Part shown: positions 430-16,144 of the stretch, piece after piece
How the letters are laid out: every line of letters begins with the position of its first letter
How positions within the stretch are numbered: position 1 is the first letter of the stretch
Assembly (NCBI GenBank): GCA_944389975.1
Contig: CALXOH010000014.1
Coordinates: 1-50,459 of the forward strand
Direction: 5' to 3'
From: an uncultured Spirochaetaceae bacterium
GTDB taxonomy: Bacteria > Spirochaetota > Spirochaetia > Sphaerochaetales > Sphaerochaetaceae
Length of the DNA stretch: 50,459 nt
Notes under the pieces: generated by a model
The model's database searches: none
The model's input: only the letters and a program-made list of their open reading frames with translations
What the model was told of the DNA's origin: nothing
Translations under genes and position numbers: made by a program

Positions 430-478
430 GGCACTGGATGTCTGGAGCAACCATGGCTCATCTTCTGTCCCGATACTG

Positions 479-532
479 CTTTTCTCATACTTGAAGTATA
501 ACATTCTTGACACGAATAAGTAATGAGAAAAG
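479..532. repeat. 10-bp inverted repeat
   Basis: CTTTTCTCAT (479-488) is the exact complement of ATGAGAAAAG (523-532). The right arm abuts the next set of repeats, so the structures are packed end to end. Confidence 0.65.
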
Positions 533-648: not shown

Positions 649-692
649 ATCAACAGATGCCAGTGGGAAAACTACACATATAAGCTATGAAG

Positions 693-724
693 TCTATGAA
701 CCCTGCTTACACAGGGTTCATAGA
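693..724. repeat. Perfect 13-bp palindrome beside an AT-rich tract
   Basis: TCTATGAACCCTG (693-705) and CAGGGTTCATAGA (712-724) are perfect complements with a 6-nt loop. The AT-only tract at 733-768 follows directly. Neither side has a terminator-type T-run. Hairpin plus AT-rich DNA next to the helicase gene suggests an initiation structure. Confidence 0.7.
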
Positions 725-785
725 TGACACAGTGATTATTAATAGATTAATTATTAATTATTAATAAGGGCTGTGTCGTTACGGC

Positions 786-2387
786 TCATGTGGCCTGCTG
801 ACCTGTGGTAAGTCCCCTGTTGCGGGATATCGAGTCATTCTCATTAGGAGACAGCATTGTGATTGATGCAAGCCGTCCATCCTCATCCCAGCTGATGCAG
901 ATATGTCCCGAGTCGACAAGCTCATCGAAGAAGGATCCTGTCCTGGAGAGGTTCTCGGAGAGCCAGGCTTCATCCTTCCCATACACATTCCTCATATGAT
1001 CCTCGATCGCCGAGCCGGACAGTGACCACACCCCTGTGCAACTGGGAGTTCCGTGAAGAGTCATGGCATCACGGATGGCAGAGAGCTTGGATGTTGCTTC
1101 TGCCGAGAGCATGCCAAGTCTCTTCGAGTTGCCTGAATGCTCAAGACATGCGCCGCTGACATGAAATCCGTCCTCATCCTTGCCAAGGCTCTCGATGGCT
1201 ACAGTCTTGATCCTTGCATCAACATAATCACCTTCGGGGCCGAGACGGTTCTTTGTCACGGTCTGGCGGATTCCTCCTTCCTTGTTGTAGCTGACACGCA
1301 GGGTGAAGTCTGCCATGCCCTTGATGGCTCCCGAGCCGCGCATGTCCTCGTCATTCGCCTTTGTCGTGTGGTGGAGGAATACGATGGCGCAGTCATGGAA
1401 GATCTGGAGGCGGAGGATGACATCAGCGCGGAAGCGCGCGATATCGACGGCATTGTTCTCCTCTCCTGTGAAAAAGGTGTTCCATGTGTCGAGGAAGATG
1501 ATGTCGGGCTTGAAGCCATACGGAGCGGCTTCGAGTTCTCTCAACGTCTTCTGAAGCCTCTCCATACCTTCTGCGGATGACAGCGGTGCCGACAGGGGAT
1601 AGAAGCAGAAATTCTCGAGGAAGGCGTCCGTATAGGCTTTCGCGAATGCTATTATCCTCGACCTGATTGCGGCTTCGCTCTCTCCAGCGACATAAAGCAC
1701 CTTCGCCTTGTGGCAGATGAACCCATGCCAGGAAGGGAGCCCTGATGCCATATGGAGCGCCGCATCGAGGGCGAAGAAGGTCTTGCCCACACCCGAGGGC
1801 GAGTAGATGAAGCCGAGGAAACGGCCTCTGGGGAAGAATCCCCTGATGAGCCATCTCACCGGAGTGAAGTGTCCGAGAAGGGAATTGCCGATGTAGAAGG
1901 TATCCTGGCCGCTGGATGTCGTCCTGCTGAGGAGGTCTGTCGATGCTGGCATTGCGGGTGAAGGCCATTCGGCAGGAACCTGGGATGTCTCCCTTGGCCT
2001 GATCTGATCCTCGACCGTCGGCTCCTTGATGATGCAGCCTCTTGCCTTGAGCGTCGCTTCAATCTTGTGCCTGCTGTTTCTGGATGAAGGAAGAACGACG
2101 GTCTCCTTCTGCATCGTGAAGATGGAGAGTGCCTCCCGCCAGTCCGAGCAGACATAGACGGGCTGCTTCCTTTCTATCGTCCCAAGGACGAATGTTCCAG
2201 GAAAACGGAACCGGCTGCGGATGAAGCGCTCCTTTCCGTCTATGCCGACCTTCAGATAGTTGACGATGATCTTCTTCTCATCCCTGTAGGGCAGATAGAA
2301 GCTCATGGCGTCATCCTTGCGGACGCCGCTGAGGAAGCTGACTTCCTCAGTGTTGGCTGTAATCTGATTGATGATGTCTGTGTTCAT
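786..2387 (-). CDS. RepA-type AAA/RecA-fold replicative helicase of the mobile element
   Basis: A 533-residue protein with a poorly conserved N-terminal third (residues 1-170) followed by a RecA-like ATPase. The Walker A motif SPSGVGKTFF lies at about residues 196-205 and a Walker B-like strand IIFLDTWN at about residue 295. A later segment HHTTKANDEDMRGSGAI matches the RepA/AAA_25 group, hexameric helicases of plasmids such as RSF1010 and of many phages. It would unwind the element's origin ahead of the primase encoded just upstream. Its ATG overlaps the primase stop by one base (TAATG), which points to translational coupling. The C-terminal 100 residues are unassigned. A role in regulated replication of an integrated element is inferred from context. 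Confidence 0.8.
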   Translation of the reverse strand: MNTDIINQITANTEEVSFLSGVRKDDAMSFYLPYRDEKKIIVNYLKVGIDGKERFIRSRFRFPGTFVLGTIERKQPVYVCSDWREALSIFTMQKETVVLPSSRNSRHKIEATLKARGCIIKEPTVEDQIRPRETSQVPAEWPSPAMPASTDLLSRTTSSGQDTFYIGNSLLGHFTPVRWLIRGFFPRGRFLGFIYSPSGVGKTFFALDAALHMASGLPSWHGFICHKAKVLYVAGESEAAIRSRIIAFAKAYTDAFLENFCFYPLSAPLSSAEGMERLQKTLRELEAAPYGFKPDIIFLDTWNTFFTGEENNAVDIARFRADVILRLQIFHDCAIVFLHHTTKANDEDMRGSGAIKGMADFTLRVSYNKEGGIRQTVTKNRLGPEGDYVDARIKTVAIESLGKDEDGFHVSGACLEHSGNSKRLGMLSAEATSKLSAIRDAMTLHGTPSCTGVWSLSGSAIEDHMRNVYGKDEAWLSENLSRTGSFFDELVDSGHICISWDEDGRLASITMLSPNENDSISRNRGLTTGQQAT

Positions 2388-3256
2388 TATCTTGTCTCCT
2401 CTTTTATGAGGCGCATGATATCGCCTCCGTTGTTTACATAGTCATTGGCATCCCAGCCTTCAGTCGGGATGACGACATATTCGACTCCTGCTGCAACAGC
2501 AGCTTCATGGGCTTTCATCTGCCCTGTTTCTGATTTATCGTTGTCAGCGATAATGACGATCCTCTCTGTCGGGTGGCGCTTCTTCACCATGTGTGCGACT
2601 GTTGTCAGATTGCCTGCCGAGAATGCGATATATGTGAGCATGCCTGTCTGCTCGGTCACTGACGCACCTGTTGCAAACCCTTCGACGATGAAGATGAGAC
2701 CCTTCCTCATGCCTCCGACGATGAGATGTCCTCCGTTCATCCGGCTGCCTCTCAGAAAGCGCTTGCTGCCGTCAGTAGCGATGAACTGGACGCCGACCAC
2801 CTCCGACAGGTCATTGTAGACTGGGACGATCAGGAGGCCGTCTGATGACTGTCTGAGGCTGTGAGGCATGACACGCTTCCTCTGAAGATACGGATGTTCA
2901 TAAAAGGCAGGTGCGTTGCACTGGACTATGGCGGTTGCATAGGCTTTCAGGAAGGCCTCGTCGCATGTGTCGGTCTTGCGGTTGTCACGCATGAAGAATG
3001 GAAGCATTTCGAAAACGCTCTTGAGCCTGTCATCATCGTTCCTGAAGCGATATACGTAGTGTTTGCCTCCCTCCTTCCAATCCCCGTATATTACGCTGTC
3101 ATAAACGGGATCGTAGCGGAGGAAGATATCGCTGTTTCCTCGCTTCCCGTCAAAGGATCTGATCCGCTCCATGCGGTCTGAGCGGAGATGGATGTCGCCT
3201 GCCGGATAGATGCCGTTCGAGGCCATGTCGGCCTTGAGTTCTTCGATTCTAGTCAT
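2387..3256 (-). CDS. Toprim-domain DNA primase of the mobile element
   Basis: A 289-residue protein that would make RNA primers for element replication. The Toprim core is visible: the glutamate strand LIFIVEGFATGASV (near residue 190) and the acidic motif IVIIADNDKS (near residue 235), ending with EGWDANDYVN, which is usual in plasmid and phage primases. The upstream part (PYLQRKRVMPHS, then a strand with VPVYND) also matches primase-like proteins of integrative elements. No CHC2-type zinc finger is present at the N-terminus. The start is set by GAGGAAG eight bases before ATG. It is the upstream partner of the helicase and overlaps it by one base. Confidence 0.8.
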   Translation of the reverse strand: MTRIEELKADMASNGIYPAGDIHLRSDRMERIRSFDGKRGNSDIFLRYDPVYDSVIYGDWKEGGKHYVYRFRNDDDRLKSVFEMLPFFMRDNRKTDTCDEAFLKAYATAIVQCNAPAFYEHPYLQRKRVMPHSLRQSSDGLLIVPVYNDLSEVVGVQFIATDGSKRFLRGSRMNGGHLIVGGMRKGLIFIVEGFATGASVTEQTGMLTYIAFSAGNLTTVAHMVKKRHPTERIVIIADNDKSETGQMKAHEAAVAAGVEYVVIPTEGWDANDYVNNGGDIMRLIKEETR

Positions 3257-3316
3257 TTATACTTCCTCATAAACAGAGATGGGGCCCCCTGCATGGAGCC
3301 CCATCCCGCGAAGACC

Positions 3317-3787
3317 TCAGAAGGGAACGTAGTCCTTCGCATCCTGAGTGTCTTCCTCAAATTCGCTGTCCGTATCGGCCTCACCAGCCGGTGCGGACCC
3401 GTTTTCTGCCTTTTCGTAGGCAGTGATTTCAGGCTGCCACCCCCATGAGGCGGTGTGCTTCATCCTGATGACGATGCGCACTCTCTTGCCGATGAGATCT
3501 GACGGCTCGAAGGAAGTGACTCCTCCGAGCCCGACAGCCTCCAGCAGCTGGTGGAGCTTCTTCGTGCCGTAGTAGACAGCGGCTTCACTGCTACTCGTGA
3601 GGGTGATGTGGTCAAAGACCACAGCGCCGATGCAGGCGGGGCCTGCGACACGGAGCATGTCGAAGAGCTGCGTCCCATTTCCGGAACGGGGAACTCTTTC
3701 TTCACACTTCTCGATAGCCGCATCGTAAGTGCCATCGTGCAGCTCGACATTTGCGGGCGGTGTAAGGTTATTAACATTCACTGCCAT
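3317..3787 (-). CDS. Phage/plasmid SSB-like protein (DUF669 type)
   Basis: A 156-residue protein. The start at 3787 has AAGGAG nine bases upstream; a longer frame reaching 3883 lacks such a site. The body (FDMLRVAGPACIGAVVFDHI, later KLHQLLEAVGL and IGKRVRIVIRMK) resembles DUF669 proteins, which are found in phage and element replication modules and are thought to bind single-stranded DNA. The extreme C-terminus is strongly acidic and ends AKDYVPF, much like the DDDIPF tip of bacterial SSB that docks repair and replication partners. It sits 60 bases upstream of the primase in the same direction. The function is inferred from resemblance and position. Confidence 0.65.
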   Translation of the reverse strand: MAVNVNNLTPPANVELHDGTYDAAIEKCEERVPRSGNGTQLFDMLRVAGPACIGAVVFDHITLTSSSEAAVYYGTKKLHQLLEAVGLGGVTSFEPSDLIGKRVRIVIRMKHTASWGWQPEITAYEKAENGSAPAGEADTDSEFEEDTQDAKDYVPF

Positions 3788-3872
3788 AATAATTCTCCTT
3801 CTTAGTACCTGAGATAACTGACCACAACGTGGCCATTGGTGGCGTGTTGGCGCCCTTGGTGGGCCTCGGATA

Positions 3873-4070
3873 TCAGAAGCCATGGCTCTTCACCTCCTCG
3901 ACATATGAACGAAGGATGTACGGCCTTCGGCCTTTAGGTCGGACAACTTGAATACGCCCTTGCGAGGCGTAAACACGTACTGTCCCATACGAATAACCAA
4001 GCTCGAAAGCGAACTCTTGGTATGTCATGTGCTCATCTTCATGATTTTCATGCTGTTCATTTGACCTCAT
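3873..4070 (-). CDS. Small helix-turn-helix DNA-binding protein (excisionase-like)
   Basis: A 65-residue protein. It shows the helix-turn-helix pattern MTYQEFAFELGYSYGTVRVY followed by a wing-like segment (QGRIQVVRPKGRRPYI), typical of MerR-fold excisionases and small regulators of mobile elements. The ATG at 4070 lies inside the end of the upstream gene, a 14-base overlap, with GAGGG just before it; an internal ATG at 4028 is a possible alternative start. It may act as recombination directionality factor for the integrase or as a repressor of the replication operon. The two roles cannot be separated here. Confidence 0.6.
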   Translation of the reverse strand: MRSNEQHENHEDEHMTYQEFAFELGYSYGTVRVYASQGRIQVVRPKGRRPYILRSYVEEVKSHGF

Positions 4071-4290
4071 AAAGTCCCTCATCCTCCATCTTCTCGAGTT
4101 CATCGAGCGGATACATCGCGCGATGACCTGGAATCTTGACAAACGGCAACTCTCGACGACATTTTTTCACATACACTGTTTCTACGGTGTATCCGTATCG
4201 CTCAGCGACCTCCTTCGCAGTCAGGAGAACTCGCGTCTGACGAGTGTGGTCTATCTTAAATTTGTCGGTCCTCGTTTCACTTTTATTCAC
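4057..4290 (-). CDS. Small MerR-fold/HTH_17 DNA-binding protein
   Basis: A 77-residue protein with a winged-helix core: LLTAKEVAERYGYTVETVYV is the helix-turn-helix, followed by ELPFVKIPGHRAMYPLDELE, the pattern of helix_turn_helix_17 / excisionase proteins. The frame starts with GTG at 4290, with GGAAG only a few bases upstream, so the start is less certain. It heads the operon of regulator, SSB, primase and helicase. An inverted repeat (4308-4325) lies directly in front and could be its operator. Together with the downstream gene it forms a pair of related small DNA-binding proteins. Confidence 0.65.
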   Translation of the reverse strand: MNKSETRTDKFKIDHTRQTRVLLTAKEVAERYGYTVETVYVKKCRRELPFVKIPGHRAMYPLDELEKMEDEGLYEVK

Positions 4291-4307
4291 ACTTCCATTT
4301 TTAAAGA

Positions 4308-4325
4308 TATGAGCAAAAGCTCATA
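4308..4325. promoter_or_regulatory. Inverted repeat before the replication operon, candidate operator
   Basis: TATGAGC (4308-4314) pairs with GCTCATA (4319-4325) across AAAA. It lies 18 bases upstream of the GTG of the first helix-turn-helix gene, where an autoregulator could bind, or where a 5' UTR hairpin could form. No clear -35/-10 pair was found nearby. Confidence 0.4.
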
Positions 4326-4428
4326 CACAGACTTTCCGGTTTTTCTCTTCATGTAAGTTGTTACAGGATAAGAAAAATCAGACTATTCAGGTCTGTGAAC
4401 TATCATTAAGTACGGGTGGTGGGCGGGC

Positions 4429-4456
4429 AAAAAAAGAGGGAGACAGATGCTCCCTC
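4429..4456 (-). terminator. Rho-independent terminator after radC
   Basis: On the minus strand the stem GAGGGAG/CTCCCTC with a 7-nt loop is followed by seven T residues. It begins 12 bases after the radC stop codon and separates the radC transcript from the replication operon. Confidence 0.85.
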
Positions 4457-4467
4457 AAGTGCTGTCT

Positions 4468-5145
4468 CTACTCCATCATTCCATGTTCCAGAAAGCTGTA
4501 GTAGCTCTTGTCAGTGATTATCAGGTGGTCGAGAACCTTGATTCCCAGTATGTCTCCGGCCAACCTTATCCGCTTCGTGAGCGAGATGTCATCATCGCTC
4601 GGCTCAAGCGTGCCCGATGGATGGTTGTGGGCTATGGCGATTGCCGTAGCTCTTGCCTTGATTGCATCCGAGAATACCTCTCTGGGATGGGCCAGCGTCT
4701 TATTGACAATCCCAGTTGTTATGCACTTGGTGAAGAGAATCTCGTGAGCTCCATTGAGAGCCATGACGATGAAGTGCTCCTGTTCCTCGTGCGTGAAGTG
4801 GTAGGTCTCCTTGTAGATGTCGTTCGGGCTGGTGATTGACCTTGCCGTCTTCTCTCCCTTGCGTCTGCCGACCTCAAGAGCGATGAGTATGCCGGATGCC
4901 AGCTCCTTGGATACTCCCTTGATGCCTGTCAGGTCTGTCAGCGAAGGGGTTACGTTACAATTCAATGCGTCAAGTATTTCGTTTGCTGTCCTCTTTGCAT
5001 CCGCTCTTGATGAGAGATACGGTCTGATGAGCTCAACCATGAGCTCGCAGTCTCCAAGTCCTTTGACTCCATACTGGGCAATCTTCTCTGCAATCGTCTG
5101 TGTCTTCTCGAATGTCTCGAAAAGCTCCATCTGTGTGTAGGCCAT
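4468..5145 (-). CDS. radC: RadC-like JAB/MPN-domain protein
   Basis: A 225-residue protein with a helix-hairpin-helix region in the first 90 residues (LTGIKGVSKELASG) and a C-terminal JAMM metal site: AHNHPSGTLEPSDDD gives the H-x-H-P-S-G...S-x-x-D ligand set. RadC proteins are common in mobile elements; the biochemical role is not settled, and an earlier repair assignment has been questioned. The ATG at 5145 has GGAGG and AGAGGAA upstream. The same frame stays open for about 240 bases further upstream but has no better start. A terminator follows the gene, so it is probably a separate transcript between the replication operon and the integrase. Confidence 0.88.
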   Translation of the reverse strand: MAYTQMELFETFEKTQTIAEKIAQYGVKGLGDCELMVELIRPYLSSRADAKRTANEILDALNCNVTPSLTDLTGIKGVSKELASGILIALEVGRRKGEKTARSITSPNDIYKETYHFTHEEQEHFIVMALNGAHEILFTKCITTGIVNKTLAHPREVFSDAIKARATAIAIAHNHPSGTLEPSDDDISLTKRIRLAGDILGIKVLDHLIITDKSYYSFLEHGMME

Positions 5146-5504
5146 TTCCTCTACCTCCAGAAATTCAGGATTTGCAATCTCCGTTGCGGTGATTACATCT
5201 CCCGCGACGGGGCGAGAAGAAACGAAGCCTGGGATCAGGTGGTAATGGATGTCACAGGGCACACGCAGTGTCTCGTCTTGGCCCTTGACAGGAATGTGGC
5301 TGCATCCCGAAGAGATGTCAGCAGGCGGACAGTCAAGGAAGCCTCTGGCTCTTGTCTTGTCGTTTACTTTCCGCGCTGACAGTCTCCCCGAAGGGGAAGG
5401 TGTGGTACATCCAGGAGAGGAAAGCTCCTAGATGTTGCAATGGTGGGAAAGGAGAGTCTGAGGGGAAAAGGTAACGCATATAGGTTGTCCCCTCTCAGTT
5501 TGAA
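5146..5504. other. Intergenic stretch upstream of radC
   Basis: About 360 bases without a supported gene. The minus-strand frame of radC remains open upstream to a TAG near 5430 but lacks an initiation codon with a ribosome-binding site, so it may be a 5' UTR or the remnant of a longer gene. No promoter hexamers, hairpins with T-runs or repeats stand out. Confidence 0.4.
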
Positions 5505-6713
5505 TCAGTTGCCATTCCGATTGTAATTCCATCTCTTTCTTGCATCGTAGATTGTATTTGACGGTATTGTCTTGTAGCCATCTTCATATCTGAGGTAGGC
5601 ATCGATTGCTTCGAATTTGATGTCAGGACGTTCATCGAGGATTGCAAAGAGGATCTGGTTGAGAAGGTGATCCTCTTTCTTGATGGTATAGAAGATTTGC
5701 TGACCTTTTGCATGTTTCTGAAGCCAGTCTCCATGTTCAGCCTTGTATTTCGCAAGAAACTCGCTAAGAAATCTTTTGTCCTCTTCGATTGCTTTGTAAT
5801 GGGCAAGTCTGTCTTCTTCATTGGCGAACTTGTCCTCCCAGATTTTGCTGATGTTATCGAGTGCCTCCTGAACATCATTGGCAATCTCTGTATTCTGATT
5901 GCTTATTGACTTGAGTTTCGTACTGATCTCTTTTGACGCTGTTGCAATCGTTCCACCCTGTTTAAAGATATCCTTGACTGTTTTTGAAAGTGCTTCAAGT
6001 TCTTCAAATATATTTTTGAGACTTGATTTTCCTGAATCAAGCTTTTCGCGAAGCTGCTCAAGGACTTCGATGAGAGCATCCTTTTTAGGATCATCAGGTT
6101 CTGGCTTCGGATTGAGTTCCTCTTCCGCTTCAGGGGAGAGATACGGGATACAGAAGGTCTCGACAAGAGTCCTGTAGTCTGTATCGTTGAAGAAGTCATT
6201 GAATGGATGTTCTGAGCTGAAGCGGTTTTCAATGATGTATTTTCGCAGAAGTGCCGTATTCTTCCAGTCAATCGCGTCCCCCAATACATCCTTCTCTTCG
6301 GGATGATTATCAAACCAGAGACGCATTGCGATGATGAGCCAATTCGCATTAGCGTAACGTGAGTCCAGCTCGGTTCTTCTGTCGTCGTATTTCCCGAAGA
6401 GCTTGTCCCAGAGCATTCTCTTCATCTTGATCTTTGCCTGATCCATGATAAAGAGAATGACATTCTGTTTGATGCAGTTGGTGACATCCTTGTCTGAACC
6501 TTCAATGCCTTGCCTGACCGCTTCAACCAGATAGTCGTGGAGTATCACGAAAGCTATATACTCGAAATGGAGCAATGACTCGCTCTTGGCGTTCCAACGG
6601 AACTCCTTCGAATGGGACTTGCCCATGATTTTATGATTCAGATTGCTGATTTCCTGTACCTTTTTCTCAAGAAAGGCATCTGTACGCTGTTTTGCTTCTA
6701 TGTATGTGATCAT
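5505..6713 (-). CDS. Hypothetical 402-residue protein, coiled coil
   Basis: The family is not recognised. The protein has no signal peptide and no membrane helix. The N-terminal half is helical and rich in aromatic residues (LLHFEYIAFVILHDYLV; ANWLIIAMRLWFDNHPEE). A proline-rich acidic linker (NPKPEPDDPKKD, near residue 215) is followed by about 120 residues with heptad-like Leu/Ile spacing and many Lys/Glu, a likely coiled coil. The basic tail ends RKRWNYNRNGN. The start has TAGGAG eight bases upstream, and that site overlaps the integrase stop codon, so the two genes are expressed together. Accessory cargo or defence genes often sit in this position, but nothing in the sequence proves such a role. 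Confidence 0.6.
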   Translation of the reverse strand: MITYIEAKQRTDAFLEKKVQEISNLNHKIMGKSHSKEFRWNAKSESLLHFEYIAFVILHDYLVEAVRQGIEGSDKDVTNCIKQNVILFIMDQAKIKMKRMLWDKLFGKYDDRRTELDSRYANANWLIIAMRLWFDNHPEEKDVLGDAIDWKNTALLRKYIIENRFSSEHPFNDFFNDTDYRTLVETFCIPYLSPEAEEELNPKPEPDDPKKDALIEVLEQLREKLDSGKSSLKNIFEELEALSKTVKDIFKQGGTIATASKEISTKLKSISNQNTEIANDVQEALDNISKIWEDKFANEEDRLAHYKAIEEDKRFLSEFLAKYKAEHGDWLQKHAKGQQIFYTIKKEDHLLNQILFAILDERPDIKFEAIDAYLRYEDGYKTIPSNTIYDARKRWNYNRNGN

Positions 6714-6722
6714 GTACTTCTC

Positions 6723-8030
6723 CTATTTTGTGTCCAGTATGTGTTTCGACATCACACCGAGCATAACCAGACTTGTCGGTGTGTCGTGTGTATAGATCAG
6801 TTCGTCAACAGTCTTGCTTTTGTGACCGATGGCTGCTCTGATTTCCGCCTTATAAGGTTCAAGCCGTTCCGCAGATGCCTTGCTTTCTGAATCATGGAAG
6901 TGCCTGAGGCTCTGGAAATCGATATGCCGGCTCATGCGTATTTCATTTGATATCCCCATGGCTTCAAGAGCATCATAGAAATAGTCTTGGAAAATGTTTT
7001 TGACATAAGGCTGGGAGGATTTCCCTTTGGAGAAGGAAGCGAACAACAGATCAGATTCGCTCCTGCCATATTTTTCTGCAAAGGCAATCAGCTCTTTTAC
7101 CAGGTCTTCATGGATGACTGTCGTTCTCTTGTATCGCTCTTTTGTGGGGCCTTTTTTCTTTTCAGCGTCGACCCAGCTTTCCGATACATCTACCTTGTAG
7201 AACGGTGTGGGCTCTCCGGCATCATTCATCACTCTCTTGAGCTTGTTCAGACTGAATACGCGGATTTCGGCTTCTCGCATTCCGCCATATACGGCGAGCT
7301 TTGCCGCAAGATAGGCGACGTGCCTTGATGGGGACTCCTGAGCGAAAATCTGCATGAATTCAAGAACCTGCTTCGCCTCGGCTCTTGATAGAATTTCTCT
7401 TTCACGGCGTTTGACTGAATACGGCTTGACATAAGAAAAAGGATTGAAATCCACGATGTCGGTCTGGACGGCGAAGTTGTAAGCCGTTCTCATGGCCTTG
7501 ATGGCCATGTTGATGTTGTCCGGACTTGCTCCAGCTTCGTGCATCTTGTCCTGCAATTTCTGTGCATCGAGTTTCGAGAATCCGATTATTGTTGTCTTGG
7601 AATCGATATGTGGTTTCGCATGAAGTCTGAATGCGGATTCCATGTTTTTCACGTTTGCGCGAGATAGACGGTCTATCTTTCTTCTGTTTTCAGACTGCAC
7701 CCATGGCGATTCATCATAGTTGAGTATCTTCTCCACATAGGGGATGAGGGGAGAAAGTGAACCGTCGACTTCATATTGCGACACGCCCTTGATGAGCCCC
7801 TTGCTGATTGCTTCCTGTACTATGTTCTTTGCATCAGTACCATTCATCTTGAATGTGTTCCGATATCCCAGCTGCTTTGCCAGTTTTGTAACGCTGTATG
7901 TCCTTCCTCCAGGAAACTGACCGGTGAGAGGATTCCTGAGCTGGCAATACCATGAAGGCTTTCTTTTGACCCCGTTGTATTCCTTCCTGCCTCGTTTGTA
8001 GATGCTTACATCTCCGATTGTAATTCCCAT
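6723..8030 (-). CDS. int: Tyrosine recombinase/integrase of the mobile element
   Basis: A 435-residue phage-type integrase that would catalyse insertion and excision. The first 90 residues are an arm-binding region (QLRNPLTGQFPGG; SVTKLAKQLGYR), followed by a SAM-like core-binding domain (residues 100-210). In the catalytic domain the first Arg is in YGGMREAEI, the second Arg in DFQSLRHFHDS, the later His in AIGHKSK and the nucleophile Tyr in ELIYTHD. The usual His of the H-x-x-R box appears as Gln (Q-S-L-R). The ATG at 8030 follows AAGGAG. The gene reads away from tRNA-Gly, the normal placement for an element inserted at a tRNA 3' end. Confidence 0.9.
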   Translation of the reverse strand: MGITIGDVSIYKRGRKEYNGVKRKPSWYCQLRNPLTGQFPGGRTYSVTKLAKQLGYRNTFKMNGTDAKNIVQEAISKGLIKGVSQYEVDGSLSPLIPYVEKILNYDESPWVQSENRRKIDRLSRANVKNMESAFRLHAKPHIDSKTTIIGFSKLDAQKLQDKMHEAGASPDNINMAIKAMRTAYNFAVQTDIVDFNPFSYVKPYSVKRREREILSRAEAKQVLEFMQIFAQESPSRHVAYLAAKLAVYGGMREAEIRVFSLNKLKRVMNDAGEPTPFYKVDVSESWVDAEKKKGPTKERYKRTTVIHEDLVKELIAFAEKYGRSESDLLFASFSKGKSSQPYVKNIFQDYFYDALEAMGISNEIRMSRHIDFQSLRHFHDSESKASAERLEPYKAEIRAAIGHKSKTVDELIYTHDTPTSLVMLGVMSKHILDTK

Positions 8031-8147
8031 CGTGCTCCTTCTGATGTTGTAAAACAAATGTTACCTCCTGAATTTTAGCAAATTCGGGGATTATCTCCAA
8101 ATAAGGTTGCCGATGGATTGTTTTCAGAGATGAGTTTTTCAATTTCA

Positions 8148-8169
8148 TCTGCCCATTTTTCTGCCCATT
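8148..8169. repeat. Short direct repeat between integrase and tRNA operon
   Basis: TCTGCCCATT occurs at 8148-8157 and again at 8160-8169, a 12-bp period. It lies between the integrase start and tRNA-Gly, where arm-type integrase sites are expected. The function is a guess from position. Confidence 0.4.
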
Positions 8170-8191
8170 GGATTTTCAGGCAATGCGCAAA

Positions 8192-8240
8192 TAAAAGAAA
8201 AAGCCCAACTAATTCCTTGTATCAGAATCAGTTAGGCTTT
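8192..8240 (-). terminator. Terminator of the tRNA operon
   Basis: On the minus strand AAAGCC(T)AACT pairs with AGTT(G)GGCTTT and is followed by TTTTTCTTTT. It begins right after the tRNA-Gly 3' end. If the element is inserted exactly at the tRNA 3' end, this terminator came in with the element; otherwise the junction lies further left. Confidence 0.85.
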
Positions 8241-8241
8241 A

Positions 8242-8313
8242 AGCGAAAGACGGGACTTGAACCCGCGACATCCACCTTGGCAAGGTGGAGCTCTACCACT
8301 GAGCTACTTTCGC
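8242..8313 (-). tRNA. tRNA-Gly(GCC)
   Basis: Cloverleaf on the minus strand: acceptor GCGAAAG/CTTTCGC, anticodon loop TTGCCAA giving GCC, T-arm GGGTTCAAGTCCC, discriminator T. CCA is not encoded. It is the last gene of the four-tRNA operon, and its 3' end faces the integrase, so it is the likely attachment target. Confidence 0.95.
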
Positions 8314-8651: not shown

Positions 8652-9004
8652 TAGGGTTTTAATAAATTTTCAAATTATTCGCATGGAAATACATGAGCAG
8701 ATACAAGACGATGAACCATGCGAAATGCAGGATATGCTACCATCTGATATCCTCGGTCAAATTCAGGAGAAAGCTGCTTGAGCCGATAAGGGAAGATGTC
8801 CTGGCATCATTCAGGATGGCTGAGTGGCTGAGAAGCAGCGATTCACCTTGCTGCCTGGCAGCAACTATCACTGTATTTTTTGTATAATTGCTGACTCGCT
8901 CCCTACATTCTGGCTGGAGTAGAAGACGATGTTGTTCTCCATTTTGAAATAGCTCAGGACGACATGTTCTGTACCATCCCCTTTGTGAAGATGGTACATG
9001 CGGA
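8652..9004. other. Gene-free stretch between the tRNA promoter and the TerY-P operon end
   Basis: No supported gene on either strand. A 9-bp inverted repeat TGTACCATC (8970-8978) / GATGGTACA (8990-8998) lies just beyond the last stop codon of the minus-strand operon and may end its transcript, although no T-run follows. A second short palindrome with a plus-strand T-run downstream lies near 8849-8883. Confidence 0.45.
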
Positions 9005-9175
9005 TTACAACCCCATCAATCTCGCTATTCCTGCCAGTACGAGCAATATGCCCGTAATACGAAGGATGAAATTCAGTACGATCCACCCTGCAGCCTTTAC
9101 CGTTGAGTCGGTTATGTGTATCACCTTGCCGAAAACAATGGCAACAAGGCCGAGGATTATCAAGATTATACCCAT
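9005..9175 (-). CDS. 56-residue membrane protein, last gene of the TerY-P-like operon
   Basis: The short frame starts MGIILIILGLVAIVFGKVIH and has a second hydrophobic stretch (IVLNFILRITGILLVLAGIA), so two membrane helices joined by a short polar turn. The ATG has AGAGG eight bases upstream and lies 12 bases after the TerY-C gene. No family is recognised. The tight spacing and shared direction suggest it belongs to the operon and may help anchor the complex. Confidence 0.6.
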   Translation of the reverse strand: MGIILIILGLVAIVFGKVIHITDSTVKAAGWIVLNFILRITGILLVLAGIARLMGL

Positions 9176-9187
9176 CTTGGTTACCTC

Positions 9188-9553
9188 TTACTGTCCGCTT
9201 GTTGCTTCACCTTCGAGCGTGTCGATGTATCCGGAGACTTCTCCACTGTTGCCGCAGTATGCACATGTGAATTTCCCGCTTCCGTCGTAGCACGTCAGTT
9301 TCTGACATTGCCCGCAGCGTACATAGGAAATCGATCCGCAGTCCGGGCATTTGTATTGCGGTCCGAGGCGTGCTCCTCTGATGTCCAAGGTGACGCTGCT
9401 GAGGTTTTTTGCAACTGAAACATCCGAAGGCAGGGTTTTCTCAGCTCTCGTAAGATTCCATACTCCGTCGTATGCCCTGTCATAGCGCAAATAGAATTCA
9501 TTTTTCGTCTTGGCGCACCTTATCGGCAGAAAGACCAGATCCTTGTTATCCAT
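9188..9553 (-). CDS. Free-standing TerY-C-type zinc-binding domain protein
   Basis: A 121-residue soluble protein. The N-terminal part (PIRCAKTKNEFYLRYDRAYD) and the C-terminal double Cys-pair module (CPDCGSISYVRCGQCQKLTC, then FTCAYCGNSG) match the TerY-C metal-binding domain. In TerY proteins that domain follows the vWA domain in the same chain; here it is a separate gene while the three vWA proteins of the operon lack it. It probably binds one or two zinc ions and acts as an adaptor for the vWA proteins or the kinase; that role is inferred. It overlaps the preceding membrane protein gene by 8 bases. Confidence 0.7.
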   Translation of the reverse strand: MDNKDLVFLPIRCAKTKNEFYLRYDRAYDGVWNLTRAEKTLPSDVSVAKNLSSVTLDIRGARLGPQYKCPDCGSISYVRCGQCQKLTCYDGSGKFTCAYCGNSGEVSGYIDTLEGEATSGQ

Positions 9554-9977
9554 TGAAACCTCCTAAAAATAAATTGAATCCAAAAAGCAATATGGCCATC
9601 AACAGGCAAAGATATCTGATGTACTTGGTTATTATTGCACCGTGTCGACCACCTCTGATCCTGAAACTATCAAGGATGGCGATGATTATGGATGCGAATA
9701 CGAAAAGGACGAAGAGAAACAGTATCCCTTCGATTGAAACCGAGAGGGATGATTTGATGCTCTCGTTGTTCTGGAACATTGCGTACCCGAATGATGCGGA
9801 GAAGAGCGCTATGTTCATTACCAGTGCAAAATTCATCGTTGGCAGTGCTTTTGAAAACACCTCTGCATCCCGTACCCGCTTTATTCCAAGAAGTACGCTT
9901 GTCAGGAATATCGCACAAGATAAAAGCAATACAGCCGAAGATAGCTCCGATAAAAGCAGCAGCCAGTTGAATATCAT
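9546..9977 (-). CDS. Four-helix membrane protein of the TerY-P-like operon
   Basis: A 143-residue protein with four hydrophobic segments: about residues 5-32, 45-68, 80-105 and 115-140. No catalytic motif or known family is recognised. The ATG at 9977 has GGAGG eight bases upstream and overlaps the stop of the zinc-ribbon gene as ATGA, so translation is coupled. It likely works with that neighbour as the membrane part of the system. Confidence 0.7.
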   Translation of the reverse strand: MIFNWLLLLSELSSAVLLLSCAIFLTSVLLGIKRVRDAEVFSKALPTMNFALVMNIALFSASFGYAMFQNNESIKSSLSVSIEGILFLFVLFVFASIIIAILDSFRIRGGRHGAIITKYIRYLCLLMAILLFGFNLFLGGFNG

Positions 9978-10678
9978 GGCAACAACCTCCAAAGTATGGT
10001 TAATCCTTCGTGGATGAAACCACAAAGTGCAATTATCGATTTCATTCCCGCATGAAATGCATAATCGATATATGTACGCAGATTTACTGCAACATCATCC
10101 AGCAGTGACGAAAACAGCCAAAGACTATTTCCGGTTGCATCCACGGATGTGTCGGCAAGTGATGTAATGAGTTCAGTCGACATTTTCCCAATCGCGGGAA
10201 GAGCTGACGGGATGCTTCTTTCTGCAATCAGCATAATGAATACAAGAAACAATGGAAGTGCGATCAATACAAAGAATCGGGAAAACCTTTCAAGGGCGGC
10301 TTGAATTGAGAAATCTGAGAAAAGATCATATTCAGTAACAACACCCTCTGGTTTTCTCATTACCTTCATATAGTTTCTGACATCTCTTTTTATCCTCTTG
10401 TAGTCACTTTTCGGCAACGTCGATTTACATGAGATGCATACGTTGTCTTTGTATTTTCTTTTCAAAGGATTTGTGTCTCCGCATTCATGGCATTCCCAGT
10501 ATGCGTTGTATTTGAGTTCATCGACGACAGCCGGTGACAAATCCGACTTGACGACTTTGAATACGCGGAAATCCTCATCCTCTAAAGCTTCGCAATGTCT
10601 GCATGAAATATCAGATAGATGGTTTAGCGTGCCGCATTCATGGCAGTTCCAACCTGCAAAGATCTTTGTAACCTTCAC
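9974..10678 (-). CDS. Membrane protein with two N-terminal zinc ribbons
   Basis: A 234-residue protein. Two Cys4 modules come first: WNCHECGTLNHLSDISCRHC (about residues 10-29) and WECHECGDTNPLK...CISC (about residues 61-82), both with the W-x-C-x2-C-G-x-x-N pattern of RanBP2-like ribbons. A basic linker follows, then a strong membrane helix (FFVLIALPLFLVFIMLIAE, near residue 150) and two weaker hydrophobic stretches at the C-terminus. The start is GTG at 10678, four bases after the kinase stop, with AGG/GGAA sequences before it. The ribbons would face the cytoplasm and could bind the kinase, the vWA proteins or nucleic acid; this is inferred. Confidence 0.7.
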   Translation of the reverse strand: MKVTKIFAGWNCHECGTLNHLSDISCRHCEALEDEDFRVFKVVKSDLSPAVVDELKYNAYWECHECGDTNPLKRKYKDNVCISCKSTLPKSDYKRIKRDVRNYMKVMRKPEGVVTEYDLFSDFSIQAALERFSRFFVLIALPLFLVFIMLIAERSIPSALPAIGKMSTELITSLADTSVDATGNSLWLFSSLLDDVAVNLRTYIDYAFHAGMKSIIALCGFIHEGLTILWRLLP

Positions 10679-10682
10679 TTTC

Positions 10683-11939
10683 CTACCTGCTTTCCGTTCT
10701 GACGTAACCAAGATGGATTGCAAATTTCAAATCGTAGATTTTCTTTGATCCATCTTCAAATTCAACGTCGACCTTGCTTCTGTTGTTTGTGTTGAAGGAA
10801 ACCGCTTTGACTTTCTTTCCATTAGCAGAGTATCCATCTCCGGGAGAGAGCGTCATATTCTCAGTCTCTTTTTCCTTTTCCCTCAGGAAATGGGAAAGTC
10901 TTTCTTTCTCTTCACTCCTTCTCTCCTCGATTCTGGCCTTCTGTTCAAGTATCTTTTTCGGTTCTTTTCTTTCTTCCGGTTTCCTTTGAACTTTGATGTC
11001 AGTCTCTTCCTTTTCCGGCTTTCTTGGAACATCCGGCTGTTCCTTTACTTCTTCTCGCTGCTTCTTGATAACTCCCGGCTTTCCGTTCTTCATCTCCAAT
11101 AGAGCCTTGTGGACTTGGGACATATCAGGTCGGTTGTCAGGTTCAAGGACAAGCATCGACTTTATCAGGGTTTTGATATCTTCATTGATCGAATCATCCG
11201 TTACGACATCAATACCCTTTGCAATCAATTCGAATGGGTATTTGTCATTCTTAAGCAATCCTTCTTTGGAACAATATGTGTAAAATATCAACCCTAGTGT
11301 AAATACATCGGTTTTGGGTGAAATCAAGGCCTTTGCAGGATTCTCATCTTCTTCCGAGAATCTTGTGAATATATTCATTTCCGGGCTCTGCCACTGTTCC
11401 TTGCTCATGATTGATTTTGGAATGTTGTTTTGAAAGAAGCAGTCGGTGAAGTCTATAAGCTTCGTCACGTGCCTTCCTCCGGCAGATTTCGAGATAAGTA
11501 TGTTTGTCGGATCCAGATCCCCGTGGATGATTCCAGCCTTATGCAGCTGGCTCAGACAACTGGCGACCGTGAGCATGATCGAAATCTTCTCTTCCCTGGG
11601 AAGTTTGTGAACTTCTTTCACATCCATATTGTCCGTTTCTATGAAGTGGGCAACTTCATAGCAGAACGTTCCGTGCCTTATGTATTCGATCGGTTTTACC
11701 AGAGTACCCATCCCATCCCCTGGAAGTGTGTTCATGATCTTGATTCGTTCGTTATACCACGCATTGCCTTCCTCAAGGATTTTTTTCGTTGCCATCGATG
11801 TTGGATTAATGGGAAACTTATAGCTTGTTATTTGCTTGAGAAAGAATTTCTTTCCGTTTTTTACACCTATATTGCATTTGCCATTTCCGCTTTTCTGCTC
11901 CCATTTCGTCTCATCGACTTCATAACCGTTCAAATTCAT
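10683..11939 (-). CDS. TerY-P-type Ser/Thr protein kinase
   Basis: A 418-residue cytoplasmic protein. The kinase domain fills residues 1-285: lysine in KKFFLKQI, catalytic loop IIHGDLDPTNILI (HRD read as HGD, with the catalytic Asp and Asn kept), metal loop LIDFTDCF (DFG read as DFT), and EMN/DVFTLGLIF in the C-lobe. A highly charged Lys/Glu segment of about 70 residues follows (KKQREEVKEQ onward), then a small globular end (SYSANGKKVKAV-like, VDVEFEDGSKKIYDL). The gene overlaps the phosphatase gene as ATGA. Kinase, PP2C phosphatase and vWA proteins together are the TerY-P triad known from comparative genomics; substrates are unknown, and the vWA proteins are candidates. Confidence 0.82.
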   Translation of the reverse strand: MNLNGYEVDETKWEQKSGNGKCNIGVKNGKKFFLKQITSYKFPINPTSMATKKILEEGNAWYNERIKIMNTLPGDGMGTLVKPIEYIRHGTFCYEVAHFIETDNMDVKEVHKLPREEKISIMLTVASCLSQLHKAGIIHGDLDPTNILISKSAGGRHVTKLIDFTDCFFQNNIPKSIMSKEQWQSPEMNIFTRFSEEDENPAKALISPKTDVFTLGLIFYTYCSKEGLLKNDKYPFELIAKGIDVVTDDSINEDIKTLIKSMLVLEPDNRPDMSQVHKALLEMKNGKPGVIKKQREEVKEQPDVPRKPEKEETDIKVQRKPEERKEPKKILEQKARIEERRSEEKERLSHFLREKEKETENMTLSPGDGYSANGKKVKAVSFNTNNRSKVDVEFEDGSKKIYDLKFAIHLGYVRTESR

Positions 11940-13798
11940 ACCGCCCCCATGTATATGGCATTACCTATATGACGAATATCTGCCGCAATATTTTCTGAAT
12001 ATGCTTCTTTTTCCTTTTCAAGCCTTTTGCATTCATTTTCCTGTTCGATTATCTTGGCCTGGCACTCTCTGTACCTTCCCAGTCGGGAAAGGAAATCCTG
12101 ACCGAGGGAATTCGGTGATAGAGAACATCTTTCGATGGATTCAAGTATGGAAGAAAAGAGTTGATTCCTGTTTACAAGCGTAAAAAGTGAAATCTCCTCA
12201 TCTCTTTCTTTTATATGCTTCTCATCAAGATTTTTCCTCATTTGATCAAATTCTGTTGGAAGCTTGACAAGTCTTGATATATTTTCCTTCTCGTCTTTTG
12301 GGATGTAGTCAGGTATGTCATCAACAGAAGAGAATATCTTTTCTGAGATTTCTGCAATCGCCGGGTATGCTTCATTTCTTTTCTTGTTGAAATGCGAAGT
12401 ATTGTAGAAAGCATTGAGTATCGGGAATTTGCGTGTCTTCACTTTCTCGATGTACTGGGCGAGTACGTTCTTGAATTCAGACAGGATATGAACTACACCG
12501 TTCGTGAATTCCTCGTCGTCAAGCATTTCCTCGAAAGTACTCATATCTCTTTCAAGTTTCTCCAAGGAGTACTCGGCAATATCTGTAGATGTCTCGCATT
12601 TATCCAGGTAGTAGGGGAGGATGATCCTCGCAATTCGATCTTTTGCTTCCGTAATGGCATTTCTCTTCCTTTCTGAAAGTTTGGAACACTCGATCTCGTA
12701 GGCTTTTTCCATATCCCTAAGTTTTTGGGAAAGTGTATTGTAGGCCGGAATGGTTTTCAGTATGTCGTCAAACAAGCCCGATCCGTCCCTGATTGATTGT
12801 GAAACAACATCCCGAATGGTTTTCTTCATCGATGAAGAGAGTTCATCTTTTGTAGCATTCTCCTTCATTGAGTCGCTTTTGTTCCTTTCGTAGTCGCTCA
12901 AGACCGGTAGGATGCTTTCCATATTTACCTTGACTTTCCCAACCCGTTCTGCAAAACGCGTCTTTACGTCATCTTTGGAATTCAAACCGAAGAAAATACC
13001 ACATGCGGTAGTGTCATCGCCGATTGTCGAGTAGTACTTGCCTTCAAGTTCGTTTTCAAATGCCCTCACCCAATCAACACCTTCGACAGAATTGTCCACC
13101 GAAGCAAGAAGGTGGGCTTCCAATCCCCCTTCAAGGAAAGCGGGAACCTTGAGGTACTCGAAGCAGCCGTCGCTGGAACAGAATGAAAATCCAGGTTCAG
13201 AGAACTCATACATTGCATAGTTGAGCTTGAAATCCCCATATGCGTAGATGAGGTTGCCCATGTCGCTGTCCTTGCCACCTGCGATATGGTCGTTTCCGTC
13301 TCTCGTATCATCTTTGGTCAAAAGCTTCAGCCCCGATTCTGCTCCAAGGTAATATACCCTGGAGTCTCCCGCCCAAATTACGATTATTGATATTTTCTCA
13401 TCGGTTGGAACGTACAATGCAGAAGCCAATGTCGTAGGGAATATTTTTGTTGTCACCCCGACTGGTTTTTCAATTGCATGTTCTTCTGTCTTTTTTGAAA
13501 ACATATTCATAAGCCTTTCTTTCATCGTTGATACGAATGAAGAAAGTCCTATCTCATCCCTGTCGTGTACGATCCTTTCGATTTCTTCCTTTTCGGAAGC
13601 AAAATATTCCTCAACCGCAGCAGAAACAAAACGGGCACCGAAGTAAGCACTGGTATGTTTCTCTCCACCAAGTGAGAGTATCCTGCCGCCCGATCCGCCC
13701 AGGCCATCGCATACGATCGAGTATGCTTCAGTGGAAACGGGCTTTGCATCCTCGCACTCAAGTCCTTTTGCAGACTTCTGTATTGCGTATGTCAGCAT
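11936..13798 (-). CDS. PP2C-type protein phosphatase with long coiled-coil C-terminus
   Basis: A 620-residue protein. The N-terminal 275 residues are a PP2C domain with the metal motifs intact: ECEDAKPV, SIVCDGLGGSGG, TTLASALYV, WAGDSRVYYL, FSFCSSDG and IGDDTTACG. The remaining 345 residues have no recognised domain and are strongly helical and charged with heptad-like repeats. The tail is much larger than in ordinary PP2C proteins and suggests a scaffold. It would reverse phosphorylation by the overlapping kinase. The vWA gene upstream ends 9 bases before this start. No membrane segment is visible. Confidence 0.83.
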   Translation of the reverse strand: MLTYAIQKSAKGLECEDAKPVSTEAYSIVCDGLGGSGGRILSLGGEKHTSAYFGARFVSAAVEEYFASEKEEIERIVHDRDEIGLSSFVSTMKERLMNMFSKKTEEHAIEKPVGVTTKIFPTTLASALYVPTDEKISIIVIWAGDSRVYYLGAESGLKLLTKDDTRDGNDHIAGGKDSDMGNLIYAYGDFKLNYAMYEFSEPGFSFCSSDGCFEYLKVPAFLEGGLEAHLLASVDNSVEGVDWVRAFENELEGKYYSTIGDDTTACGIFFGLNSKDDVKTRFAERVGKVKVNMESILPVLSDYERNKSDSMKENATKDELSSSMKKTIRDVVSQSIRDGSGLFDDILKTIPAYNTLSQKLRDMEKAYEIECSKLSERKRNAITEAKDRIARIILPYYLDKCETSTDIAEYSLEKLERDMSTFEEMLDDEEFTNGVVHILSEFKNVLAQYIEKVKTRKFPILNAFYNTSHFNKKRNEAYPAIAEISEKIFSSVDDIPDYIPKDEKENISRLVKLPTEFDQMRKNLDEKHIKERDEEISLFTLVNRNQLFSSILESIERCSLSPNSLGQDFLSRLGRYRECQAKIIEQENECKRLEKEKEAYSENIAADIRHIGNAIYMGAV

Positions 13799-13807
13799 TC
13801 GTCCTCC

Positions 13808-14566
13808 TCAGCTCATGGAGAATGCGATCTGACTCATTACTTCTCCCATTTCGATCGAATCACCACCGGATTGCTGTTCGATGTTTTCGATTTGGACGTA
13901 ATTGAGTGTTGCTGCCAAATCACTCCATGGATATGAGTCCGGAGCATAGATTATCAGCCTTCTGCCTGTGGGGCTCATGTTGCAAGATCCCAGCGATTCC
14001 TGGCTGTCTATGCATACCCAATCGTTGAAGAATTCATCAAGGCTTTTCGGCATGTTCTCCGGATATGACGTGACTTTGCATCCTTTGGCTTCCGCCTTGG
14101 CCTTCAATTCGTCATAATCCTCAAAAGGATGTGCAGAAGCATCTGTGAAAAGAACGATGATGTGCCTTTTTTTGGTTCCATCCTGCACCCAGTTTGTCCT
14201 CATTGCCAATGTCAGCGCTTCAAGGCTTGTCTCCGGGTCGTCACCACCGCCCTTCGCCTCGATTGATGAGACGAAATCCCTGAAAGCCTCTTCGTCCCCG
14301 GGCAGGTTGAAAAATTCCGATTCTCCGTACGCTTGGTCTCCATCGAAATAAAAATCCCTGAACCAGTTTACCTTCACTCTGAGCTTGTTCACCCTCTTTC
14401 CGGATGCTTCAAGTACTTTCGTAAGCTCTTCATGAAAGTGCATCGTGCTGTCTTTTACCATTTCGATTATCGGATCCATGCTTTTTGTTGCATCGATGAC
14501 GAAAACTATATCTACGTTTGTCTCGACGGCAGTTGCACCGCCAAGAAAATCCTGCATGTCACTCAT
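13808..14566 (-). CDS. TerY-like vWA domain protein 1
   Basis: A 252-residue protein, essentially one von Willebrand factor A domain. The MIDAS metal site is visible as VFVIDATKSM (D-x-T-x-S) near residue 20 and LFTDASAHP near residue 135, with the loop GGGDDPETSLEAL between them. The start at 14566 follows TAGGAG; a longer frame would overlap the upstream gene without a ribosome-binding site. It lacks the TerY-C zinc domain. It is about half identical by eye to the next vWA gene, so the two arose by tandem duplication. vWA domains in TerY-P systems are predicted to bind partners in a metal-dependent way. Confidence 0.82.
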   Translation of the reverse strand: MSDMQDFLGGATAVETNVDIVFVIDATKSMDPIIEMVKDSTMHFHEELTKVLEASGKRVNKLRVKVNWFRDFYFDGDQAYGESEFFNLPGDEEAFRDFVSSIEAKGGGDDPETSLEALTLAMRTNWVQDGTKKRHIIVLFTDASAHPFEDYDELKAKAEAKGCKVTSYPENMPKSLDEFFNDWVCIDSQESLGSCNMSPTGRRLIIYAPDSYPWSDLAATLNYVQIENIEQQSGGDSIEMGEVMSQIAFSMS

Positions 14567-14585
14567 CTCAATCTCTCCTATTTTA

Positions 14586-15326
14586 TCAACCCATCGAGTA
14601 GGCAAGTAATTTCCAGACAAGATCAAGTTCCAGATCCTGTCCACCATTTCCCTTGTTCATCTCTGAACGGATTGCATTGTTGAAGTTTTGTTCTATCTGG
14701 CTCCATGGATACATGGACGGGGCAAACAACACAAGGCGCTTTGTAGCTTTTGTGAATTTGACGCTCTGTGTGGTCGCACCAAGGAATTCCTGATCACCTC
14801 CCCAGGCATCTCCCAATTGATCAAAACTTTTATACATCCACTTTGGATAATTGGTGGGAATCCCATCCTTTTGCATCTCCAAAGGGTGGGCTGATGCATC
14901 TGTGAAGAGTACTATGATGTGTCTTTTCTTCGTTCCCTCTTGGACGAAGTCGGAGTTCATAGCCAAGGCAAGTGCCTCCAAACCGGACTCGGGTTCGTCT
15001 CCACCGCCTCCGGCCTTGATGCTGGAAACGTATCTGGTGAATGCATCGTTTTCTTCGGGCAGTTCGAAAAAGTCGGTTTCCTGCATTGCATACTCCGCAT
15101 CGACGTAGTAATCGCGGAAAACAATTACCTTTACCCTTAATTTTGCAATTCTTCGTTGGTTTTTTGAAAGTTCCTTCTCCAGATCGTTCCTGAATGAAAT
15201 CGTTAGTTCCTTCACTTTGTCGATCAAAGGTTGCATGCTTTGGGTACCATCGATTACGAAAACCACATCCACGTTCGTATCTATTGCCGTTGCGGCTCCA
15301 AGCATGTCTTGAATGCTGATTCCCAT
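14586..15326 (-). CDS. TerY-like vWA domain protein 2
   Basis: A 246-residue single vWA domain with an intact MIDAS: VFVIDGTQSMQP (D-x-T-x-S), GGGGDEPESGLEA and VLFTDASAHP. The ATG at 15326 has GGAG seven bases upstream. The frame remains open to 15470, where an ATG overlaps the upstream stop, so a 48-residue N-terminal extension cannot be excluded; it shows no relation to TerY proteins. The C-terminal motif RLVLFAPSMYPWSQIEQNFN is shared with both other vWA paralogues of the operon, a PW motif that may be a docking surface. Confidence 0.82.
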   Translation of the reverse strand: MGISIQDMLGAATAIDTNVDVVFVIDGTQSMQPLIDKVKELTISFRNDLEKELSKNQRRIAKLRVKVIVFRDYYVDAEYAMQETDFFELPEENDAFTRYVSSIKAGGGGDEPESGLEALALAMNSDFVQEGTKKRHIIVLFTDASAHPLEMQKDGIPTNYPKWMYKSFDQLGDAWGGDQEFLGATTQSVKFTKATKRLVLFAPSMYPWSQIEQNFNNAIRSEMNKGNGGQDLELDLVWKLLAYSMG

Positions 15327-15451
15327 GTAACTCTCCACGTTCAAAATGACTTTATCTAATTCTTCAGCAGAACAATTTTCTTGTCTAGGTTCAAATGCTT
15401 TTAATCTCTCTGATAATCGGGTTTCACTGAGCTGTCTGCGTTTATTCCAGC

Positions 15452-16144
15452 TCAGTAATAGTGGATACATGCGATGAGATTTGACAGCGGCTCGGGTTCT
15501 CCGTTGGAAAAGCGGGCGATATCCTCCGGTATTAAGTAATCAAGTGTTGTTTCAAGTTCATTCCAAGGATATTCATACGGAGAAAATACGACAAGTTGTC
15601 GGCTATACTTTCTTATGCGAGGATAGCGAATCCGTTCATCATCTTCCAAAAGCCATGCATGTTGGAATTCTTCAACTTTTTTCAAAATTGATTCATTCGG
15701 CTTTTCAGGCGAATGGACTGATGCTTTTGTGAAAAGAACAATTATGTGTCTTTTTATTCCTTCCGTCTGTACCCAATCGGCTTTCATCGCTTCCAGAACT
15801 GTGTCAATGCATTCTTCCACGCACCCTTCATCCTTACCGATTTCGATTGATTCCAGAAACCGGTTGAATTTGTTTCCTTCTTCAGGAAGGATAAGGAAGC
15901 CTGAATCACCATGTTGTTTTCCCGCTCCGCCAAACCAAATTGTCCTAACCCTTAGATTGTATTGCGATGGATCGTTTTTATAGAGATATTGGCATGTTTT
16001 CAGATTCTCTTCATAAAAATGATTGATTGCATTCTTGATGTTTCCGATTACATCTTTCATGTCAGTTGTCGTATCGATTAGAAAAACGACATCGTGGTTT
16101 CTGCTTGAAATCTTAGAGATCAGATCTTCGAATTTGAATTGCAC
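15452..16144 (-). CDS. TerY-like vWA protein 3 with degenerate metal site, first gene of the operon
   Basis: A 230-residue vWA protein starting at GTG 16144 behind CGGAGG; an alternative upstream TTG lacks such a site. Its fold follows the two downstream paralogues (RHIIVLFTKASVHS; LVVFSPYEYPWNELETTLDY), but the metal-coordinating positions are changed: D-T-T-T-D replaces D-x-T-x-S, and TKA replaces TDA, so Asp becomes Lys. The GGGD loop is also lost (GKDEGCVEECIDT). It probably no longer binds metal and may serve as a structural or inhibitory partner. The gap to the MATE gene upstream is 72 bases, so the operon may have its own promoter, but no clear hexamers were found. Confidence 0.78.
   Translation of the reverse strand: MQFKFEDLISKISSRNHDVVFLIDTTTDMKDVIGNIKNAINHFYEENLKTCQYLYKNDPSQYNLRVRTIWFGGAGKQHGDSGFLILPEEGNKFNRFLESIEIGKDEGCVEECIDTVLEAMKADWVQTEGIKRHIIVLFTKASVHSPEKPNESILKKVEEFQHAWLLEDDERIRYPRIRKYSRQLVVFSPYEYPWNELETTLDYLIPEDIARFSNGEPEPLSNLIACIHYY

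Follow-up and report, generated by a model that had tools for sequence, protein, structure and literature searches.

A vWA-PP2C-kinase operon with zinc-ribbon and membrane partners in an uncultured Spirochaetaceae bacterium, possibly a horizontally acquired phospho-switch

A run of nine genes in an uncultured Spirochaetaceae bacterium encodes three vWA proteins, a PP2C-type phosphatase and a Ser/Thr kinase together with putative zinc-binding and membrane proteins (contig CALXOH010000014.1 of assembly GCA_944389975.1; the whole stretch analysed, 50,459 nt, is termed the window). The locus raises the question of whether these genes form one system, whether that system is the known TerY-P triad, and what it might do. 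The results point to a conserved gene block whose core differs from TerY-P-like triads. It is quite possible, judging from the sequences and gene neighbourhoods, that the block represents a horizontally acquired, membrane-anchored phospho-switch of conflict or stress type.

The nine open reading frames (ORFs) are tightly spaced on the minus strand at 9005-16144 and are transcribed in the order vWA1, vWA2, vWA3, PP2C, kinase, ZNR (zinc ribbons with transmembrane, TM, helices), TM4, TerY_C and a 56-amino-acid peptide. Overlaps are found between the PP2C and kinase genes (4 nt), ZNR and TM4 (4 nt) and TM4 and TerY_C (8 nt), and the remaining intergenic gaps are 4-19 nt, apart from one of about 125 nt that separates vWA1 from vWA2. 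Because most gaps are this short and neighbours overlap, the arrangement is operon-like. The nine closely packed genes of these kinds, and the operon bounds, had been proposed in an original prediction made from the DNA letters, and they are borne out by ORFs, Pfam and hydropathy.

Relatives of the block were sought in one genome per species for 84,980 species, and the best 79 loci were kept. The relatives are mostly metagenome-assembled genomes (MAGs), and only three other genomes have all or the greater part of the extended block. The closest two loci among the 79 are L009, from an Erysipelotrichaceae MAG, and L010, from a Lachnospiraceae MAG. L009 encodes three vWA proteins, PP2C (629 aa), kinase, ribbon/TM, multi-TM and TerY_C proteins in the same order as the window; L010 encodes vWA2, vWA3, PP2C, kinase and TerY_C. 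The third locus, L117, in a Clostridia-class genome, has one vWA, PP2C (641 aa), kinase, ribbon/TM, multi-TM and TerY_C, and a second ribbon/TM and TerY_C pair follows the first TerY_C. The order PP2C-kinase-ribbon/TM-multi-TM-TerY_C is thus identical in the window, L009 and L117. Among the four loci the kinases are 33-42% identical and the phosphatases 31-35%, mostly in the catalytic domain, and the window TerY_C protein is 45-52% identical to the proteins in the equivalent 3' slot of the other three. The window, L009 and L010 have vWA2 and vWA3 paralogues in common, in the same order, with identities of 59-60% for vWA2 and 53% for vWA3. The third vWA of L009 is not a vWA1 but a further copy of the vWA3 type. 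In the vWA tree a group of eight rows is supported at 100/99, and L117 with L016 comes next (100/89).

Zinc-ribbon partners recur more widely. In the 79 loci, 86 W-x-C-x-x-C double ribbons are encoded within 5 kb of a vWA gene, all on the vWA strand, versus 2 farther away; many of the loci are from related Streptomyces, so the 86 are not independent events. In the non-actinobacterial loci, a near ribbon is found in 9 of 24 and a farther one in none of the 24. Other membrane proteins occupy the same slot, such as a DUF4407 protein in Prevotella (L061) and a multi-TM protein with a metallophosphatase in Ruminococcus (L072). The original prediction had regarded the zinc and membrane genes as additions to the triad. 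This is contradicted by the recurrence of the ribbon with the triad lineage and by the ZNR/TM-TM4-TerY_C order kept in two other lineages, while the prediction's broader idea of a membrane-linked phosphosignalling module, to be sought as a conserved block in unrelated genomes, is upheld by the co-inherited order of L009 and L117 and partly of L010.

It appears most improbable that a plain vWA-PP2C-kinase triad just happens to lie beside unrelated membrane and zinc genes. This would account for L010, which lacks both ZNR and TM4, and for the kinship of TM4 to the multi-TM proteins of L009 and L117, which is one of position and topology alone, sequence homology being undetected. It is opposed by the gene overlaps, the identical order in L009 and L117, the ribbon enrichment and the conservation of TerY_C.

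In two loci of this triad type a large protein is encoded just upstream of the triad (L036 5692-9174 and L075 4468-7941); that of L036 is an AAA-AAA-Peptidase_M41 (FtsH-like) fusion, which suggests variable effectors. In the Treponema locus L022 (10679-12208 and 13260-13850), the PP2C tail and the ribbon protein display a similar C-terminal domain (SPSGYSFSET ... GDYRVEIW).

By sequence comparison, the window core is part of a distinct and widespread lineage of triads whose vWA proteins match PF25106, seen in Actinomycetota, Chloroflexota, Bacteroidota, Bacillota and one Treponema (L022). A different triad is found in other Spirochaetota and in Clostridia (L102-L105, L118, L120, L121); its TerY_C is stand-alone, its kinase of the GEGGQG type and its vWA of the DTSGSM type. 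It fits published descriptions of TerY-P, and both kinds lie side by side in L009. Loci were included in this TerY-P-like comparison set for having a TerY_C gene and for their gene content, and the set was not drawn from TerY-P proteins tested by experiment. In BLASTP against TerY-P-like triads from other genomes, neither the vWA nor the PP2C proteins of the window have a match at E<=10, and the window kinase reaches only E>=0.18, nothing significant; the stand-alone TerY_C is the sole link (E 8e-9).

The identification of the locus as TerY-P in the original prediction is thus not supported, although its statement that no TerD gene is present here is correct: a genome-wide search gave no TerD (PF02342), while no such search was made for TerB or TerC. 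It is accordingly very unlikely that the genes form a true TerY-P triad, which would sense metals and act as a phosphorylation switch in tellurite and related stress. The enzyme set is the same, and TerY_C scores over the Pfam cutoff (PF15616, 33.5 bits versus 28.4, E 5e-8), but the lack of pairwise similarity, the absence of TerD and a kinase C-terminus without a zinc ribbon argue against it.

The catalytic and metal sites of the core proteins look largely intact. In vWA2 and vWA3 the metal site is kept (D-x-T-x-S, GGGD-x-PE, TD), and vWA2 also matches Integrin_beta (PF00362) above cutoff across the D-x-P-E/TD segment. The Pfam match of vWA1 to VWA_4 (PF25106) is weak (0.018), its metal ion-dependent adhesion site (MIDAS) is broken (DxTxD, TK in place of TD, GGGD missing), and its branch in the vWA tree is much the longest. 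Given this partial loss and long branch, vWA1 may be a regulatory pseudo-vWA. Actinobacterial homologues are ~35-43% identical to vWA3, and a profile search of solved structures with the vWA family gave no match.

The phosphatase assignment is borderline by sequence (PP2C_2, 22.7 bits, just under the cutoff of 24) and clear by predicted structure, the modelled domain matching solved PP2C structures at E about 5e-9, with PppA (6jkv) among the top matches. The motifs ED, DG, GDSR, SDG and DD are kept. A 345-residue coiled-coil tail had been proposed for this protein; the model gives ~330 residues of helix at low confidence (predicted local distance difference test, pLDDT, 28-66), so the coiled-coil label is not supported. 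In the kinase, alignments show the catalytic residues K35, HGD141, N146 and D163 (the Asp of DF(T)) to be kept. Its C-terminus is predicted to form a small five-strand beta domain (pLDDT about 80-90) with no CxxC ribbon, and hydropathy predicts no TM helix.

The two ribbons of ZNR correspond to an internal 20-nt DNA repeat, and over the ribbon the protein is related to those of its relatives (HHalign 90% with L009, 40% with L117). In a profile search of solved structures, TerY_C, a separate protein here, gave chance-level zinc fingers only. The 56-aa peptide has no relatives among 85 loci searched. Coordinates are given in Table 1. GTG 16144, with CGGAGG just upstream, is the most likely start of the first gene and fits the boundary proposed originally; the starts of vWA2 and vWA3 were set by homologue alignment, and longer ORF starts were discarded. 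Promoter and terminator scans of the locus gave nothing beyond chance level. A short ORF at 8868-9086 extends past the final operon gene and is possibly a remnant of another gene.

Table 1. Coordinates and supporting evidence for the nine operon genes, in order of transcription
Feature	Position in window	Strand	Evidence
vWA1, 230 aa	15452..16144	-	degenerate MIDAS; relatives without counterpart
vWA2, 246 aa	14586..15326	-	PF25106 5e-12; intact MIDAS-like motif DxTxS, GGGDEPE, FTD
vWA3, 252 aa	13808..14566	-	PF25106 4e-17; MIDAS-like motif intact
PP2C-type phosphatase domain (residues 1-290) + ~330-residue helical tail	11936..13798	-	metal-site Asp residues conserved
Ser/Thr kinase + linker helix + small C-terminal beta domain (362-417)	10683..11939	-	PF00069 1e-18; alignments; model
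ZNR: two W-x-C-x-x-C (RanBP-type) zinc ribbons + 1-2 TM helices	9974..10678	-	HHalign to L009 ZNR
TM4, 143 aa, four predicted membrane helices	9546..9977	-	hydropathy; same slot in L009, L117
Stand-alone TerY_C metal-binding protein, 121 aa	9188..9553	-	PF15616 over cutoff
56-aa hydrophobic peptide, doubtful member	9005..9175	-	ORF only

The module was probably acquired horizontally, since its distribution is very patchy and its guanine + cytosine content is low (0.437 in the operon versus 0.494 in the window). At E<=1e-30 the vWA family is found in 1 of 393 sampled Spirochaetota genomes, the window's own. A full-length PP2C match occurs in the window's genome alone among 139 genomes of its order, two same-genus genomes having marginal partial matches of 26-28% identity. 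Counting the known carriers, TerY_C of the window type is present in 1 of 295 genomes in the order of L009 and 2 of 391 in the class of L010. With a near-identical gene order in distantly related gut bacteria, the block looks like a horizontally spread signalling module, perhaps with a role in defence. Such patchiness and apparent acquisition are unlike a housekeeping system, and a general envelope or stress housekeeping regulator with no role in defence is considered unlikely. Consistent with that alternative, genes for YARHG, GW and L,D-transpeptidase proteins lie directly downstream in L009, and related transglutaminase-like proteins adjoin triads (L117 15067-16050, L009 1751-2806, L123 8260-8970).

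No att-like repeats flank the operon. Same-genus homologues of the adjacent MATE gene have neither the operon nor the tRNA array next to them, so that no clean empty site emerges. The MATE gene lies on the operon's own contig and shares up to 81% identity with its counterparts in same-genus genomes, which makes contamination unlikely. An apparent integrative element, which encodes a tyrosine integrase (6723-8057), occupies window 1-8240 and adjoins tRNA-Gly (8242-8313) on its 3' side; a four-tRNA array separates the element from the operon. The operon as cargo of this element is unsupported, as the integrase is on the far side of the tRNA array, past the 3' end of tRNA-Gly.

Several results weigh against a conflict-type membrane switch. 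Besides the TM4 and L010 observations, no recognisable nuclease, toxin or pore domain is present in the operon. Viral contigs scanned with vWA3 and with the vWA, TerY_C and kinase alignments gave no relatives, and a plasmid search with TerY_C and a phage search with ZNR gave no matches. One vWA-PP2C-kinase triad lies on a phage-labelled contig (L007, label unverified), and the phage association is not strong. PADLOC 2.0.0 gave generic kinase-domain matches and none to system-specific models; TerY-P-like proteins are likewise without specific matches, so the library may not cover such systems.

From the composition and co-conservation observed and the intact-looking active sites, a direction of signalling, substrates and an output can be proposed for the putative switch. 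The module comprises one to three metal-site vWA proteins, PP2C, an intact-looking Ser/Thr kinase, ribbon/TM, multi-TM and TerY_C proteins in an operon-like run. The kinase and PP2C would control whether the vWA and zinc proteins are phosphorylated, and the vWA proteins would bind targets via a metal site similar to the I-like site of integrin beta (D-x-T/S-x-S ... D-x-P-E). As adaptors, TerY_C and the ribbons might recruit the complex to the membrane. Infection, envelope damage or a signal of that kind would tip the kinase/phosphatase balance, and the altered balance would change the state of the ZNR/TM-TM4 membrane part, the output. The operon shows no obvious effector enzyme, so the output is most likely the ZNR/TM4 pair. 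A more specific form of the proposal is doubtful: an immune or conflict switch anchored in the membrane, distinct and so far undescribed, in which phosphorylation-controlled vWA proteins, with an integrin-beta-like metal site and one degenerate pseudo-vWA, would drive a zinc-ribbon/TM and four-helix effector, with the TerY_C protein common to TerY-P-like triads as adaptor.

Of importance is that vWA-PP2C-kinase triads comprise at least two lineages, easily lumped as TerY-P, one of which has recurrent zinc-ribbon and membrane partners. The gene set offers a concrete, testable route from such triads to a membrane output. We know of no explanation for the mechanism of TerY-P phage protection.

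Regulation of a type VII-like secretion machine, by analogy with the kinase PpkA, which has a vWA domain, and the phosphatase PppA in control of type VI secretion, seems quite unlikely. L009 together with L122 and L123 (G422:C21 38000-86887) forms a ~49-kb island that holds the block. By reading of the sequences, other genes of the island are WXG100-like or FtsK/EssC-like, and six encode proteins with LXG-like repeats; besides the block there are two more vWA-PP2C-kinase sets, one of them a TerY-P-like triad. The secretion genes of the island speak for this alternative, as do the ties of TerY-P triads to WXG/FtsK genes in H. pylori (PMC4978471), the vWA sensor in PpkA (PMC3224232) and the structural match of the PP2C domain to PppA. 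However, the window genome has no WXG100 gene, no secretion genes are seen at L010, and the type VII genes of L009 may go with the adjacent TerY-P-like triad.

The proposed switch can be compared with three known systems. It resembles the PpkA/PppA pathway in its kinase/PP2C pair with a vWA domain, a membrane link and a PppA-like PP2C fold, but its vWA is a separate protein, zinc proteins are present, the kinase is without a predicted TM helix and the operon has no type VI secretion genes. TerY-P triads defend against phages (Gao; PMC7699616), and their kinase carries a C-terminal zinc ribbon or OB fold (PMC11090510). With these triads the window shares vWA, PP2C and Ser/Thr kinase genes encoded together, a TerY_C domain and mobile or patchily distributed loci. 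It differs in the lineage of its enzymes, three vWA copies, ribbon/TM and TM4 genes, the lack of TerD, and a kinase C-terminus that is neither a ribbon nor an identified OB fold. The closest published match found is a kinase-PP2C-vWA set with ribbons in actinobacterial GTPase-centred conflict systems (Kaur 2020; PMC7159879). Pfam finds no DO-GTPase or GAP1 domain in the nine window proteins, farther neighbours not being profile-scanned. The kinase theme of these GAP1-N2 GTPase systems likewise has a stand-alone vWA, PP2C, an active kinase, and ribbons with TM segments; to this the window, outside the actinobacteria, adds vWA paralogues, TM4 and TerY_C.

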